Shown here: in pieces, positions 477 to 5,988 of the stretch
Layout of the letters: each line of letters starts with the position of its first letter
Numbering within the stretch: position 1 is the stretch's first letter
DNA from: Gammaproteobacteria bacterium
GTDB lineage: Bacteria; Pseudomonadota; Gammaproteobacteria; Eutrophobiales; Eutrophobiaceae
Assembly: GCA_947480335.1 (NCBI GenBank)
Contig: CANKCB010000010.1
Coordinates: 1 to 64,000, forward strand
Direction: 5' to 3'
DNA length: 64,000 nt
Notes under the pieces: model-generated
What the model saw: the letters and a program-made list of their open reading frames with translations, nothing else
Told to the model about the DNA's origin: nothing
Database searches by the model: none
Made by a program: the position numbers and the translations under genes

Positions 477-521
477 TGGCGCGCCCGGAGAGATTCGAAC
501 TCCCGACCCCCTAGTTCGTAG
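477..521 (-). other. Partial tRNA-Arg(ACG) 3' half, probable att site
   Basis: Read on the minus strand these 45 bases are the 3' portion of a tRNA-Arg: anticodon loop CTACGAA (anticodon ACG), the 3' side of the anticodon stem, a 5-base variable loop, T-stem GGGAG, T-loop TTCGAAT, CTCTC, the acceptor strand CGGGCGC, G73 and encoded CCA. The match stops exactly at the 5' edge of the anticodon loop; the bases above 521 do not continue the D-arm or acceptor 5' strand. It cannot form a tRNA. Copies that begin at the anticodon loop are the usual att cores left by tyrosine-recombinase elements. By geometry the element would lie above 521, with the intact tRNA at its far end. Confidence 0.75.
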
Positions 522-984: not shown

Positions 985-1446
985 ATGCAACGTTTGTTAC
1001 TGTCTTTATTTGTTCTCGTCATCGTCTCCACCAGCTCGGCCTATGCCGCAACACCATTAACCGCCGAATCATTTAATCTAGACCAATACAAGGGCAAGGT
1101 GGTATATCTGGATTTCTGGGCTTCCTGGTGCGGGCCGTGCAAGTTTTCCTTCCCCTACATGGAACAACAGTCTTACCTGTATCGCGACAAGGACTTTGTC
1201 ATCATCACGGTCAATCTGGATAAGTCGAACGAAAAAGCCCAGGCCTTTCTGCGTGATGTGAACACCAAACTTCCGGTCATCTTTGATCCAAATGGCGTGC
1301 TCGCCGAAAAATACGCGGTCAAGGATATGCCGACTTCTATCCTGTTCGATAGAACTGGCAAGCTGCGCACGGTGCATCAGGGCTTTTTCAGGAACAAGGA
1401 ACGCGAATACACAGCGCACATACTCGAATTACTTAACGAAAAATAA
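985..1446 (+). CDS. TlpA-like periplasmic thioredoxin-fold protein
   Basis: A 153-residue thiol:disulfide oxidoreductase of the TlpA/ResA type. Residues 1-22 are a signal peptide (MQRLLLSLFVLVIV, cut near AYA), followed by a thioredoxin fold with active site W48-C-G-P-C52 and the cis-proline loop KDMPTS near residue 116. The frame is open from 907, but I place the start at ATG 985 because the signal peptide begins there and an AGGGGA ribosome site lies 4 bases before it. First gene of a tight operon with DUF4266, DUF3570, apbE and a ScsB/DsbD-like gene. By family it reduces periplasmic disulfides, drawing electrons from a DsbD-type protein; here the last operon gene is the obvious donor, and the Cys-x-Cys tail of the DUF4266 lipoprotein a possible client (inference). 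Confidence 0.85.
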   Translation: MQRLLLSLFVLVIVSTSSAYAATPLTAESFNLDQYKGKVVYLDFWASWCGPCKFSFPYMEQQSYLYRDKDFVIITVNLDKSNEKAQAFLRDVNTKLPVIFDPNGVLAEKYAVKDMPTSILFDRTGKLRTVHQGFFRNKEREYTAHILELLNEK

Positions 1447-1464
1447 TCAGGCGGACATACCATT

Positions 1465-1689
1465 ATGAAAATGACCAAATCATTGCTGGCAGTGATAAGT
1501 CTCACAGTGTTGTTATCGGGCTGTTCCGGTGTGGGAGTCAAACCCTGGGAACGCGACATCATGGCGACAAAGGCGATGCAGTTGAATACGCAGCCTAATA
1601 TCACGGCATTCCATGATCATAATTATTTCAGCAAGGAAGGCTCCAGCGGCGGGCGCACATTTGATGGTGGAGGTTGCGGATGCAATTGA
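1465..1689 (+). CDS. DUF4266 domain lipoprotein
   Basis: A 74-residue lipoprotein. The signal peptide ends in lipobox LLSGC, so the mature chain is only about 54 residues. It shows the DUF4266 pattern: GVKPWERD just after the lipid site, HDHNYFSKEGSSGG in the middle, and a Gly-rich tail ending in GGGCGCN. The Cys-x-Cys end could bind metal or form a redox disulfide. The gene follows the TlpA gene by 18 bases and overlaps the DUF3570 start. DUF4266 is, to my knowledge, regularly coupled to DUF3570; no biochemical function is established for it. Confidence 0.85.
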   Translation: MKMTKSLLAVISLTVLLSGCSGVGVKPWERDIMATKAMQLNTQPNITAFHDHNYFSKEGSSGGRTFDGGGCGCN

Positions 1690-3038
1690 AAAAACGTAAA
1701 AACGGCCAGGTACTCAAATCACTGGGTCTGGTCACAGCCAATTTATTCATGGCCACACACGGCATGGCACAGGCGATTGATGATATTGCCAATGAGCTGG
1801 GCACGACTTCGCTGGATACAGCGCTATTGTTTTATCAGGAGTCCGGCGATCGGGTACGTGCAATTGAACCGGTTTCCAGTCTGAAGATCACCGGCGAAAA
1901 CGGCAATGTGCTTTATGCACGAGTTACTTATGATTCACTGACAGGTGCAACGCCTAATGGCGCTGCACCCTGGACTGGCACCCAGACATTTACCACACCG
2001 GCTCCCCCGCCAGATGAAGACATGTCTGTGACCAGTGCATCGGGTCGCAAGACTTATGTGACCATACCGGGCACGGGCACGCGGGTAGCACAATATACCG
2101 CTGCGGCCAATGAGCTGCCGCTGGATGCCGGGTTCAAGGATACCCGTTATGCGCTGGATCTGGGTTATTCCAGTTTATGGGATACCGATACGACCACCAG
2201 TTTTGGCTTGAGCGGATCCAAAGAGAAAGATTTTACTTCCTATTCGTTGAACGCTGCCATCTCGCAGGCACTGTTTGATAAAAATACGACGCTGGGTCTT
2301 GGATTGAATCTGGAGTTTGATACATCCGACCCACAGTATGGTATTCCAACACCGATGACGGAAATGAACGGTCTGCTCAAGGGACCTTCTGATTCGAAAA
2401 CGGTGACCAGTATCAATGCAGGCATTACCCAGGTAATGAACCGCATCTGGTTGTTTCAGCTGAATTATAATATCGGCTGGAGCAATGGTTACCAGACAGA
2501 CCCGTACAAAATCGTTTCGTTAGTCAATCCTGTAACCGGCGCACCGGTCAAATACTTGTATGAAAGTCGTCCGGATTCACGCGTACGCCAGAGCGTGTAC
2601 ATGGGAAACAAGATTGCACTGGGGTCCACTGTCGCAGACATCTCCTTGCGCTATTATCATGATGACTGGGGTATCAATTCGATAACAGCAGAAGTGTCCG
2701 ACAGGATACCGATCTCGGATCGGCTGTTTATCGAACCGGAAGCGCGATACTACACTCAGGACGCGGCTGACTTCTTCAATTATTATTTACTGAATGGGTC
2801 AACCAAACCTGAATTTGCCAGTGCCGATGGTCGTTTAGCCAAATTCAACGCCTTGACACTGGGTGTTAAACTCGGTTATTCGTTTACCCCGGACAGCGAG
2901 GTGTATCTGGTGGCTGAAGACTACAAACAAAAAGGCGATGCGAAAGTGGCCGGCGCACCCGGCGCACTGGCGAATGAAACCTTTTTCAGTGGGGTGCACG
3001 CGGCCAGCCTGATGATGGGGTTCAAGTACAGATTTTAA
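1680..3038 (+). CDS. DUF3570 outer-membrane beta-barrel protein
   Basis: A 452-residue DUF3570 protein. After a signal peptide (cut near HGMAQA, about residue 32) come alternating amphipathic stretches with many aromatic residues, ending in FKYRF, as expected of an outer-membrane barrel. Residues 85-91 read DSLTGAT, which fits the ApbE target pattern D-x-x-(S/T)-G-A-(S/T); Thr91 would be the FMN-bearing residue. An apbE gene follows after 17 bases. The frame is also open from TTG 1674, but ATG 1680 has a GGAGG site about 7 bases upstream and is preferred; it overlaps the DUF4266 gene by 10 bases. Family membership is confident; flavinylation is inference. Confidence 0.85.
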   Translation: MQLKKRKNGQVLKSLGLVTANLFMATHGMAQAIDDIANELGTTSLDTALLFYQESGDRVRAIEPVSSLKITGENGNVLYARVTYDSLTGATPNGAAPWTGTQTFTTPAPPPDEDMSVTSASGRKTYVTIPGTGTRVAQYTAAANELPLDAGFKDTRYALDLGYSSLWDTDTTTSFGLSGSKEKDFTSYSLNAAISQALFDKNTTLGLGLNLEFDTSDPQYGIPTPMTEMNGLLKGPSDSKTVTSINAGITQVMNRIWLFQLNYNIGWSNGYQTDPYKIVSLVNPVTGAPVKYLYESRPDSRVRQSVYMGNKIALGSTVADISLRYYHDDWGINSITAEVSDRIPISDRLFIEPEARYYTQDAADFFNYYLLNGSTKPEFASADGRLAKFNALTLGVKLGYSFTPDSEVYLVAEDYKQKGDAKVAGAPGALANETFFSGVHAASLMMGFKYRF

Positions 3039-3055
3039 CCAGGATAACCAGTTGA

Positions 3056-3919
3056 GTGGCCGACACACAGGTATATACATTCAGTGCGATGGCATCGCCA
3101 TGCGAGGTACGGGTCGATTGCGACGACCCGATGCTGGCGATACAACTCGGCCAGATTGCGGAAGCCGAAGCCAAACGTATTGAAGCCAAATTCAGTCGTT
3201 ACCGCGACGACAGTGTGATCACCCGGATCAATTCGTCCGCTGGCCAACCACTCGAAGTCGATAGTGAAACCGCTGCATTACTTGATTACGCAGACAGTTG
3301 TTACCAACTCAGCGGTGGACTGTTTGATGTCACCTCCGGTGTACTGCGACGGATCTGGAAATTTGATGGTTCAGACAACATTCCCACTCAGCATCAAATC
3401 GACGAATTGCTACCGTTGATTGGTTGGTCCAGGGTCAGCTGGAAAAATCCGCAACTGATTCTGCCCGCAGGTATGGAAATTGATTTCGGTGGTCTGGGTA
3501 AGGAATACGCTGTGGATTCTGCCCTGCTGAAAATCAAACAACAATCCAGTGTGCCTGTGCTGATCAATTTTGGTGGCGATCTGCGTGTGTCTGGCCTGCG
3601 CCGAAACAATCAACGCTGGTTGGTCGCGATTGAAGCGGCTGATGGAACCGGTATCACCTCTTCGCGTATCGAACTGGCCAGTGGTGGTCTGACCACCAGC
3701 GGTGATGCCCGCCGATTTCTGTTAAATAATGGTGTGCGTTACAGTCATATTCTGGATCCACGTAAAGGTTGGCCAATCAAACACGCCCCACATTCTGTTA
3801 CCGTTGCCGCACCCACCTGCATGCAAGCTGGCATACTCTCTACATTGGCCATGCTTCAGGGCAAGAAAGCAGAGCAATTTCTCCAACGTGAAAGTGTGCG
3901 TAGCTGGGTGATCCGTTGA
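3056..3919 (+). CDS. apbE: FAD:protein FMN transferase, ApbE family
   Basis: A 287-residue ApbE-type enzyme, which moves FMN from FAD onto a Ser/Thr of a target protein through a phosphodiester bond, Mg-dependent. Visible motifs are FSAMASPCEVRV at the N-terminus, IDFGGLGKEYAVD near residues 141-153, NFGGDLR near 175, and LTTSGD followed by SHILDPRKG near 225-240, which together form the FAD and metal site. The start is GTG 3056; a TGA directly before it rules out an upstream extension, so there is no signal peptide or lipobox although most relatives are exported. It lies 17 bases after the DUF3570 gene, whose DSLTGAT sequence is a plausible target. Modification before export, or export of ApbE by another route, would have to be assumed. 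Confidence 0.92.
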   Translation: MADTQVYTFSAMASPCEVRVDCDDPMLAIQLGQIAEAEAKRIEAKFSRYRDDSVITRINSSAGQPLEVDSETAALLDYADSCYQLSGGLFDVTSGVLRRIWKFDGSDNIPTQHQIDELLPLIGWSRVSWKNPQLILPAGMEIDFGGLGKEYAVDSALLKIKQQSSVPVLINFGGDLRVSGLRRNNQRWLVAIEAADGTGITSSRIELASGGLTTSGDARRFLLNNGVRYSHILDPRKGWPIKHAPHSVTVAAPTCMQAGILSTLAMLQGKKAEQFLQRESVRSWVIR

Positions 3920-3924
3920 ACTCT

Positions 3925-5988
3925 ATGATGATCCATAAAATTCTTGTTTCCTGTTTATGCTTGCTGATAACTGTCCCGTCGATAGCGGCCAGTACCGCAA
4001 CGACCCCGCACTTCACCGCTGAACTGGTTGCCGAAAGTTTGACTCCGGCAGCTGGAAAGAACCTGACTGTGGCGATTGTGATAGAACCGCAAGCTGGCTG
4101 GCATACCTACTGGAGTAATCCTGGAGAAATTGGTTTGCCACCCGATCCGCACTGGACATTACCAGCAGGCGTAACGGCTGGCACGTTACAACATCCTGTT
4201 CCGACACAAATGGTGGTTGAAGACATCATTAGTCATGTGCATGAAGGCACCACCATACTGCTCAGTGATTTCGCACTGGACTCCACCTTGGCGTCTGCAA
4301 CCCGATTACCCATCGGACTGAAACTGGATGTGCTTATTTGTTCAGAAAGTTTGTGTATACCGGAAAACGTCACGGTTGATCTGGTGCTGGTAACAGGAGA
4401 TGGCGCAGCAGACAGCGCGGTCGCTTCCTTGTTTGCACAGGCTCGCTCTCAACTGCCGAAGACATTCACTCCAGAACTCACCTATACGATCACCGATACC
4501 GATCTTCAATTGCAATTACCGGAATTGCTACCGGCAAATATCGTTGTGGCACAGTTTTTCCCTGATACGGATGGTCAGGTCGTGCGCGGCAAACAAACCT
4601 TGCGTACAAAGTCTGGCCAGCGTGTACTCACAATTCCACGCAACGGCTTACCGACGGACGCGCCTTTGTCAGGCTTGTTACGACTCGAGATTGCGGGCAC
4701 AGAACCCGCTGTAAAAGGTTTTCATATTATTGCCCATGCGGGTTCGTTAGTGCCAGCTGCGATCCCGGAACCAGTCGATGTCAGTTTCTGGCTGGCGTTG
4801 GCCGGAGCAATACTTGGTGGATTATTACTTAACCTGATGCCCTGTGTATTCCCCATACTCAGCCTCAAGGCACTGACACTGGTGAAGGCCGGTGGTCATG
4901 AAGCAGAGACACGTATCGAGGCGATTGGTTATACGATGGGAGCGATTACCGTGCTCGTCATGCTGGGTGCGATCGTCTTGTTGTTAAAACAGGCAGGTCA
5001 TGCCGCAGGTTGGGCATTTCAGTTACAGGATCCCCGCGTCGTTGCCGTGCTGGCTTTATTGGTCATTGCGATTGCGACCAACCTGGCTGGTTTGTATGAA
5101 CTGCCTTCGTTCAGTTTCGCAGTCGGTCAGCGTAAGGGCTTGTGGGGCGGAATTGGATCAGGCGCACTGGCTGCATTTGTAGCCACACCCTGTACAGGGC
5201 CGTTCATGGCTGGCGCGTTGGGCACCGCATTGTTGTTACCCGCACCAGCCGCGCTGGCTGTCTTTGCCGGTCTGGGATTTGGACTCGCCTTGCCATTTCT
5301 TGGACTCGCTTATTACGCTCCATTAAGACGCTGGTTGCCCAGGCCAGGGAACTGGATGCAAACTTTCCGTCGTTTGCTTAGCCTGCCAATGTTTGCGACA
5401 GCCGTCTGGTTATACTGGATAGTGGGGCGCGAGGCGGGTGTGGTCGCGATGACCGAATCGGTGACTGCAACTTTAATACTGGGTCTGGCCTTATGGTGGT
5501 ACGGGCTCAGACAAAATGTTGGCCAGTCTGCTACTCCGGTGTTGTTCCCGATGATTGCATCTGTATTACTTGCACTGGGGATAGCCAATACACAGAGTGT
5601 TGCATCAGAATCCGGTAATCGCTTACTGAATAACCAACCCTATTCAGCCGCACTGTTGGCAGAAATTCGAGCCAGACACCAACCGGTGTTCCTGTATCTG
5701 ACGGCTGACTGGTGCATGATTTGTAAAGTCAATGAAGCGACCAGTTTATCTTCGGCTGATGTCGCGCAGGCATTCTCCAAAGCCGGAGTCGCTGTGCTGG
5801 AAGGTGACTGGACGCGTGGCAACCCGGAAATCAGTCAATTACTGCAAAGCCAGGGACGCGCCGGAGTCCCCTTGTATTTGTGGTATTCAGGAGACAAACC
5901 ACCGGTTGAATTACCGCAAGTTTTGAGCCCGTCGATGCTAGTGGCACTAACTGACTCGGTGGATTCAGTCAGTGTCCTATCCCAATGA
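3925..5988 (+). CDS. ScsB/DsbD-like thiol:disulfide interchange protein
   Basis: About 687 residues in three parts: a signal peptide and periplasmic N-domain of the ScsB type with a Cys pair CSESLC near residue 140; a polytopic membrane domain starting around residue 290 with conserved LMPCVFPILSLK and a second ATPCTGPF cysteine; and a C-terminal thioredoxin domain with active site ADWCMIC near residue 597. All three Cys pairs needed to pass electrons from cytoplasmic thioredoxin to the periplasm are present. Last gene of the TlpA operon; apbE ends 5 bases before ATG 3925. TTG 3916, which would overlap the apbE stop, is a possible alternative start. In context it probably recharges the TlpA-like protein (inference). 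Confidence 0.88.
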   Translation: MMIHKILVSCLCLLITVPSIAASTATTPHFTAELVAESLTPAAGKNLTVAIVIEPQAGWHTYWSNPGEIGLPPDPHWTLPAGVTAGTLQHPVPTQMVVEDIISHVHEGTTILLSDFALDSTLASATRLPIGLKLDVLICSESLCIPENVTVDLVLVTGDGAADSAVASLFAQARSQLPKTFTPELTYTITDTDLQLQLPELLPANIVVAQFFPDTDGQVVRGKQTLRTKSGQRVLTIPRNGLPTDAPLSGLLRLEIAGTEPAVKGFHIIAHAGSLVPAAIPEPVDVSFWLALAGAILGGLLLNLMPCVFPILSLKALTLVKAGGHEAETRIEAIGYTMGAITVLVMLGAIVLLLKQAGHAAGWAFQLQDPRVVAVLALLVIAIATNLAGLYELPSFSFAVGQRKGLWGGIGSGALAAFVATPCTGPFMAGALGTALLLPAPAALAVFAGLGFGLALPFLGLAYYAPLRRWLPRPGNWMQTFRRLLSLPMFATAVWLYWIVGREAGVVAMTESVTATLILGLALWWYGLRQNVGQSATPVLFPMIASVLLALGIANTQSVASESGNRLLNNQPYSAALLAEIRARHQPVFLYLTADWCMICKVNEATSLSSADVAQAFSKAGVAVLEGDWTRGNPEISQLLQSQGRAGVPLYLWYSGDKPPVELPQVLSPSMLVALTDSVDSVSVLSQ

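Follow-up and report, generated by a model that had tools for sequence, protein, structure and literature searches.

The closest described system is the DUF3570 protein of Chlorobium luteolum. Méheust et al. 2021 (PMC8238504) showed in E. coli that the cognate ApbE flavinylates this protein, and stopping flavinylation takes mutation of both of its [S/T]GA[S/T] sites. The two proteins were co-expressed in the E. coli cytosol, and DUF3570 was taken from the pellet and purified under denaturing conditions (PMC8238504). As these passages describe the experiment, the substrate was therefore not a folded membrane barrel, and the reaction can occur in the cytosol. The same passages report that genes for DsbD, thioredoxin, DUF4266, DUF3570 and ApbE cluster together, and they leave the function of DUF3570 open. 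The passages of PMC8238504 that were searched contain no treatment of where in the barrel the sites lie, of a missing ApbE signal peptide or of a changed active site. A follow-up study in 2024 modelled other flavinylated domains, and DUF3570 was not among them.

ApbE proteins have a conserved active-site trio, which is S241, H257 and D285 in V. cholerae ApbE (PMC12052999). The Asp of this trio, D285 in V. cholerae, is D301 in L. monocytogenes FmnB (PMC12052999). In E. coli ApbE, D280 is a ligand of metal 1 and E169 is a ligand of metal 2 (PMC4767422).

Here, we describe a DUF3570 locus in a window of 64,000 nucleotides, the whole stretch of gammaproteobacterial DNA that was analysed (contig CANKCB010000010.1). 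We propose, with a probability of roughly 0.55, that FMN is attached to T91 of DUF3570 in the cytosol before export and that electrons pass from thiols to this flavin and on to the cell surface. Within this reading, the barrel and the position of the site are predicted, and we infer the cytosolic timing, the electron path and the acceptor. New here are the predicted location of the site within the barrel, a likely explanation for the missing signal peptide of the linked ApbE, and an ApbE clade with Glu/Gly exchanges.

Organization of the DUF3570 locus

Five genes on a single strand (TlpA-DUF4266-DUF3570-ApbE-DsbD) form one operon at window positions 985-5988. The locus thus has the DsbD, thioredoxin-like, DUF4266, DUF3570 and ApbE genes of a DsbD-type DUF3570 flavinylation cluster in one place. 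Its features are as follows.

985..1446, forward strand: TlpA/ResA-like periplasmic thioredoxin with a signal peptide and WCGPC (Pfam Redoxin/AhpC-TSA/Thioredoxin)
1465..1689, forward strand: DUF4266 small lipoprotein (PF14086, 72 bits) with lipobox LSGC-S and C-terminal CGCN
1680..3038, forward strand: DUF3570 protein of 452 aa (PF12094, 338 bits) with ATG start and signal peptide
1932..1952, forward strand: putative flavinylation motif D85-S-L-T-G-A-T91 within the DUF3570 ORF, FMN expected at T91
3056..3919, forward strand: apbE, 287 aa (PF02424, 230 bits), GTG start, of the clade with KEYAVD and QAGILST
3503..3505, forward strand: codon of ApbE Glu150, a Gly in canonical ApbE, adjoining the residue aligned with E. 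coli E169
3830..3832, forward strand: codon of ApbE Gly259, which replaces the canonical Asp (V. cholerae D285, L. monocytogenes FmnB D301, E. coli D280)
3916..5988, forward strand: DsbD-like protein with DsbD_N, DsbD_TM and a thioredoxin domain (PF11412, PF02683, PF13899)

The DUF4266 and DUF3570 genes overlap, as do the apbE stop and the DsbD-like gene, and apbE begins 17 bases past the DUF3570 stop. The first-pass annotation had placed apbE at this distance in the same operon and DSLTGAT at residues 85-91 of DUF3570, and both observations are accurate. Family membership is clear for the DUF3570 protein (cut-off 25 bits, profile positions 11-426 of 427) and for ApbE (cut-off 25.6 bits, profile positions 2-258 of 266).

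The DsbD-like protein is a candidate inner-membrane source of electrons, and the TlpA/ResA-like thioredoxin is a candidate electron carrier. DsbD, thioredoxin and DUF4266 neighbours are kept across DUF3570 loci, and a TlpA-like thioredoxin gene adjoins most of the loci surveyed. The C-terminus of DUF4266 is CGCN in 85 of 95 homologues and CGC[Y/G/E] in 8 more. Asp occupies the +2 position of the lipobox in none of the 74 homologues scored. Since the DUF4266 lipobox in the window also lacks Asp at +2, sorting to the outer membrane, beside the barrel, is expected.

Further genes accompany DUF3570 clusters elsewhere. The commonest extra neighbours are OmpR-type response regulator genes (29 loci, e.g. 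L108:8821-9480), a family named by eye that may lump unrelated regulators. VIT1-type iron transporters, also named by eye from sequence, occur in four Bacteroidota clusters, echoing a remark on iron in the passages seen of PMC8238504. In one green sulfur bacterium (L217, 3248-11531), four DUF3570 copies lie upstream of one signal-less apbE and dsbD. An ORF common to the green sulfur bacterial clusters L211, L214, L215, L217 and L219 contains VVSGASGGG in the copy that was read; it could be a further flavinylation target, or the match could be due to chance. A complete TlpA-DUF4266-DUF3570-ApbE-DsbD cluster is carried by the 1.85-Mb plasmid pTHAF191d_b of Vibrio sp. THAF191d (L232), without annotation in the record used.

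Predicted barrel and position of the flavinylation site

DSLTGAT is the sole D-x-x-[ST]-G-A-[ST] in the window DUF3570 protein, which thereby has the sequence pattern of an ApbE flavinylation substrate. Among shuffled versions of the protein, 0.76% contained the full motif and 10% the bare [ST]GA[ST]. The protein is not of the two-site type known from C. luteolum, in which a second [S/T]GA[S/T] follows about 20 residues on. Judged by this motif, FMN is expected at T91. The idea of DUF3570 as an ApbE substrate, put forward in the first-pass annotation as a function not yet described, is therefore supported in substance but not in novelty, because flavinylation of a relative was already published in 2021, as passages of PMC8238504 report.

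AlphaFold2, run with 66 sequences, gives a 16-strand barrel for the window DUF3570 (pLDDT 89, pTM 0.85). PDB matches to the model are outer-membrane barrels, the best with a Z of 22.2 and an rmsd of 3.2 over 283 residues. The strand faces alternate; the loops at one end of the barrel are long, and the turns at the opposite end are short. This asymmetry is usual for outer-membrane barrels, and the orientation was assigned by the usual rules for such proteins. A signal peptide, an even number of amphipathic strands and barrel closure, all as predicted, classify DUF3570 as an outer-membrane beta-barrel, in agreement with the initial annotation.

On the side of the long loops, strand 3 finishes with D85-G89, and loop L2 begins with A90-T91. 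T91 is thus predicted to lie where strand 3 ends on the extracellular side, at the barrel mouth or close to it. It stands just past the strand end in the model and is not buried within a strand, an outcome that the first-pass annotation had named as evidence against its idea. D85 belongs to the polar face of strand 3, which is turned to the lumen. Conservation is concentrated on the same side of the barrel: 24 of 29 conserved strand positions are in its extracellular half, and 25 conserved residues are in outer loops and 0 in periplasmic turns. In the model of a two-motif DUF3570 from green sulfur bacteria (pTM 0.84), one site directly follows strand 3 and the other immediately precedes strand 4. 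With a single loop between these sites, two FMNs would be near neighbours at the barrel mouth.

Distribution of DUF3570 and conservation of the motif

A contig scan that used the window DUF3570 as query yielded no more than two relatives, and whole-genome family searches were hence used. DUF3570 is present in 71 of 274 genomes of the class of the window genome, in 29 of 398 genomes drawn from the phylum, and in 86 of 296 genomes of the phylum of a Cytophagaceae genome. Neither the other four genomes of the window genome's genus nor 20 additional genomes of its family contain DUF3570, which suggests that it was gained by transfer. About 500 bases before the operon, window positions 478-508 on the minus strand resemble the 3' half of a tRNA, and no full tRNA was found in the window. 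This element is perhaps what is left of an integration site, which would agree with the absence of DUF3570 from congeners.

The motif column was compared in 101 DUF3570 copies, those contained in the fetched stretches. The column reads [ST]GA[ST] in 68 copies, [ST]Gx[ST] in 8 and [ST][SA]A[ST] in 20, and 5 copies fall outside these classes. The motif is thus a family feature, as the first-pass annotation had surmised, and its loss from most DUF3570 proteins beside apbE, which would have spoken against flavinylation, was not seen in this alignment. D85 is nearly invariant and is kept even where the motif Gly is lost. That loss of the motif tracks absence of apbE was considered and rejected, because [ST][SA]A[ST] copies also adjoin apbE, of another type.

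The class of the motif is paired with the type of the linked ApbE. All 57 [ST]Gx[ST] copies with a readable ApbE in the stretch are beside an ApbE without a hydrophobic N-terminus. The 13 [ST][SA]A[ST] copies with a readable ApbE are all beside the canonical Asp-type, which has a signal peptide in 9 cases; signal peptides were judged here from hydropathy and reading-frame limits, not by SignalP. The pairing extends to green sulfur bacteria, the group of C. luteolum: of 16 genomes tested, 12 carry the FMO protein. Eleven of these 12 have Gly-type DUF3570 motifs, and any apbE in the stretch is signal-less. The twelfth (L222) differs: its motif is DMVSAAS, and its ApbE is of the Asp-type and has a signal peptide. 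The motif class changes 3-4 times on the DUF3570 tree, and the enzyme type divides in one split on the ApbE tree. Because of such clustering, the pairing counts as a small number of independent events and does not prove co-evolution.

Two kinds of unusual copies were met in the survey. In L156 and L163, DUF3570 copies with Gly motifs and no apbE in the stretch are nested in the [ST][SA]A[ST] clade, and their motifs are possible reversions. Proteins of about 900 aa in L096:6982-9741, L104:5366-8077 and L146:5766-8501 consist of DUF3570 followed by a second, His/Met-rich half. This C-terminal half has no Pfam match and is possibly a second barrel with a role for metal.

An ApbE without a signal peptide

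The window ApbE has no hydrophobic N-terminus and thus lacks the lipoprotein or secretory signal of the canonical FMN transferase. A TGA at 3053-3055 lies in frame directly 5' of the GTG start, so that the protein has no longer N-terminus and no room for a signal peptide. A misread start was rejected on this ground. In L134 and L135, which have DUF3570 without a linked apbE, the signal-less type of ApbE is encoded elsewhere in the genome. The pairing of signal-less ApbE with DUF3570 spans two phyla. As far as sequence comparison can tell, the missing signal peptide is the rule of a distinct ApbE clade. The annotation was right that it is missing, but what it called odd is conserved.

Once the barrel has been inserted, an enzyme in the periplasm cannot reach a site on its outer face, and a cytosolic ApbE acting on the unfolded precursor would solve this problem. 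An unlikely alternative is that DUF3570 is nevertheless flavinylated in the periplasm, either because the linked ApbE is exported non-classically or because a separate canonical ApbE acts and the linked one is otherwise employed. Canonical ApbEs are periplasmic, congeners of the window genome carry one, and the [ST][SA]A[ST]-class loci mostly have ApbEs with signal peptides. However, the inaccessibility of the folded barrel from the periplasm, the conservation of the signal-less pairing across two phyla and the activity of the cognate ApbE in the cytosol in the 2021 co-expression, as given in passages of PMC8238504, all argue for tagging before export. So does the search of the assembly for ApbE, which found the DUF3570-linked ApbE and no second copy, although yajQ, which adjoins canonical apbE in a congener, is also missing from the assembly and a gap is possible.

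The window genome also has RnfA, B, C, D and G on contig C6 (L133:5364-9609), and Rnf flavinylation needs an ApbE. The lack of a second ApbE was dropped as proof that the linked enzyme serves RnfG/RnfD, given the possible assembly gap.

Exchanged residues in the ApbE active site

In an alignment that includes FmnB (7esa), the window ApbE has S215 and H231, and the canonical Asp is Gly259. It does not have the canonical Ser/His/Asp set and is assigned here to a variant clade within the ApbE family. This clade and the canonical enzymes differ cleanly at two alignment columns (window numbering). At position 150, Glu is present in 57 of 58 clade members, and all 16 canonical rows have Gly. At position 259, all 58 clade members have Gly, whereas the 16 canonical rows all have Asp. 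Gly/Asp is also found in all of 29 further ApbE rows from relatives, which are partly the same genes. The catalytic Ser and His are kept throughout the clade (58/58), and Thr is kept in 54/58. On the ApbE tree, one branch splits the Glu/Gly and canonical types with an SH-aLRT of 96. The ApbEs beside Gly-motif DUF3570 in FMO-bearing green sulfur bacteria are signal-less with Gly for Asp, and these relatives of C. luteolum, not its own ApbE, represent it in the comparison.

E150 and G259 were placed on E. coli ApbE through its sequence around E169-G170 and T284, by which G259 probably corresponds to D280 and E150 follows the counterpart of E169. A carboxylate is lost at 259 and another is gained at 150, near the same metal centre, which suggests a re-tooled rather than a dead active site. 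Loss of the canonical Asp could also mean weak or altered catalysis in the clade. In the extreme case, the Glu/Gly ApbE would be degenerate, and this lineage would retain DSLTGAT chiefly because the barrel needs it structurally, with no FMN on it. The replacement of the catalytic or metal-binding Asp in every member and the conservation of D85 in copies without the motif Gly fit this picture. It is nonetheless quite improbable: Ser, His and most Thr residues are retained together with the reciprocal gain of Glu, motif class and ApbE type segregate without exception, and FMN transfer has been demonstrated for a relative, as passages of PMC8238504 report.

Proposed route of FMN and electrons

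In the preferred reading, the linked cytosolic ApbE would attach FMN to T91 of the unfolded DUF3570 precursor before or during export. The barrel would then insert in the outer membrane and present FMN at the outer tip of strand 3. Electrons would leave the cytosol through DsbD, which would hand them to the TlpA-like thioredoxin; the CGC tail of the lipoprotein DUF4266 would receive them next and pass them to FMN. From FMN, they may reach a cell-surface acceptor, which is perhaps a metal ion. A role of the FMN in repair or folding of outer-membrane proteins, as a thiol oxidant or reductant through DUF4266, would suit a thiol system (DsbD, TlpA) as the electron source and the CXC pair of DUF4266, but it is improbable in view of conserved residues on the outer face, none being in periplasmic turns, and of the iron transporters of some Bacteroidota clusters, iron being mentioned also in the passages seen of PMC8238504.

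Cytosolic tagging with surface electron transfer can be framed more specifically. In this tentative form, which we rate below an even chance, a dedicated cytosolic ApbE lineage with a relocated carboxylate would tag the barrel precursor before export, and one or two FMNs at the extracellular mouth would end a thiol-driven, haem-free path.

Comparison with known systems

A site at the outer face of DUF3570 raises the testable question of whether electrons can reach the cell surface without cytochromes. If a cytosolic ApbE serves an outer-membrane protein, the Sec and barrel-assembly machineries can handle an FMN-bearing chain. How the metal site of ApbE works could readily be tested with the reciprocal Asp/Gly and Gly/Glu swap.

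The window shares all five gene families with the DsbD-type clusters described in passages of Méheust et al. (PMC8238504). The C. luteolum DUF3570 has two motifs, whereas the window protein has one. The ApbE of the soluble fumarate reductase of Klebsiella (PMC12052999) is cytosolic and resembles the window ApbE in having no export signal and a linked target. Its target is, however, cytosolic. Two cytosolic ApbEs of this kind, beside flavocytochrome c on Pantoea and Rahnella plasmids, have the canonical Gly/Asp (AKGYIAD, DGDIYTT) and not the Glu/Gly signature.

If the proposed path is right, DUF3570 is comparable to the Mtr-type porin-cytochrome conduits, in which a barrel likewise brings a redox centre to the outer face. 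The barrel of the Mtr complex, 6r2q_B, is among the Foldseek matches of DUF3570, a match to barrels in general that shows no function. The two systems differ in their carriers, as multihaem cytochromes serve in Mtr, whereas a covalent flavin and thiol carriers would do so in the DUF3570 system.
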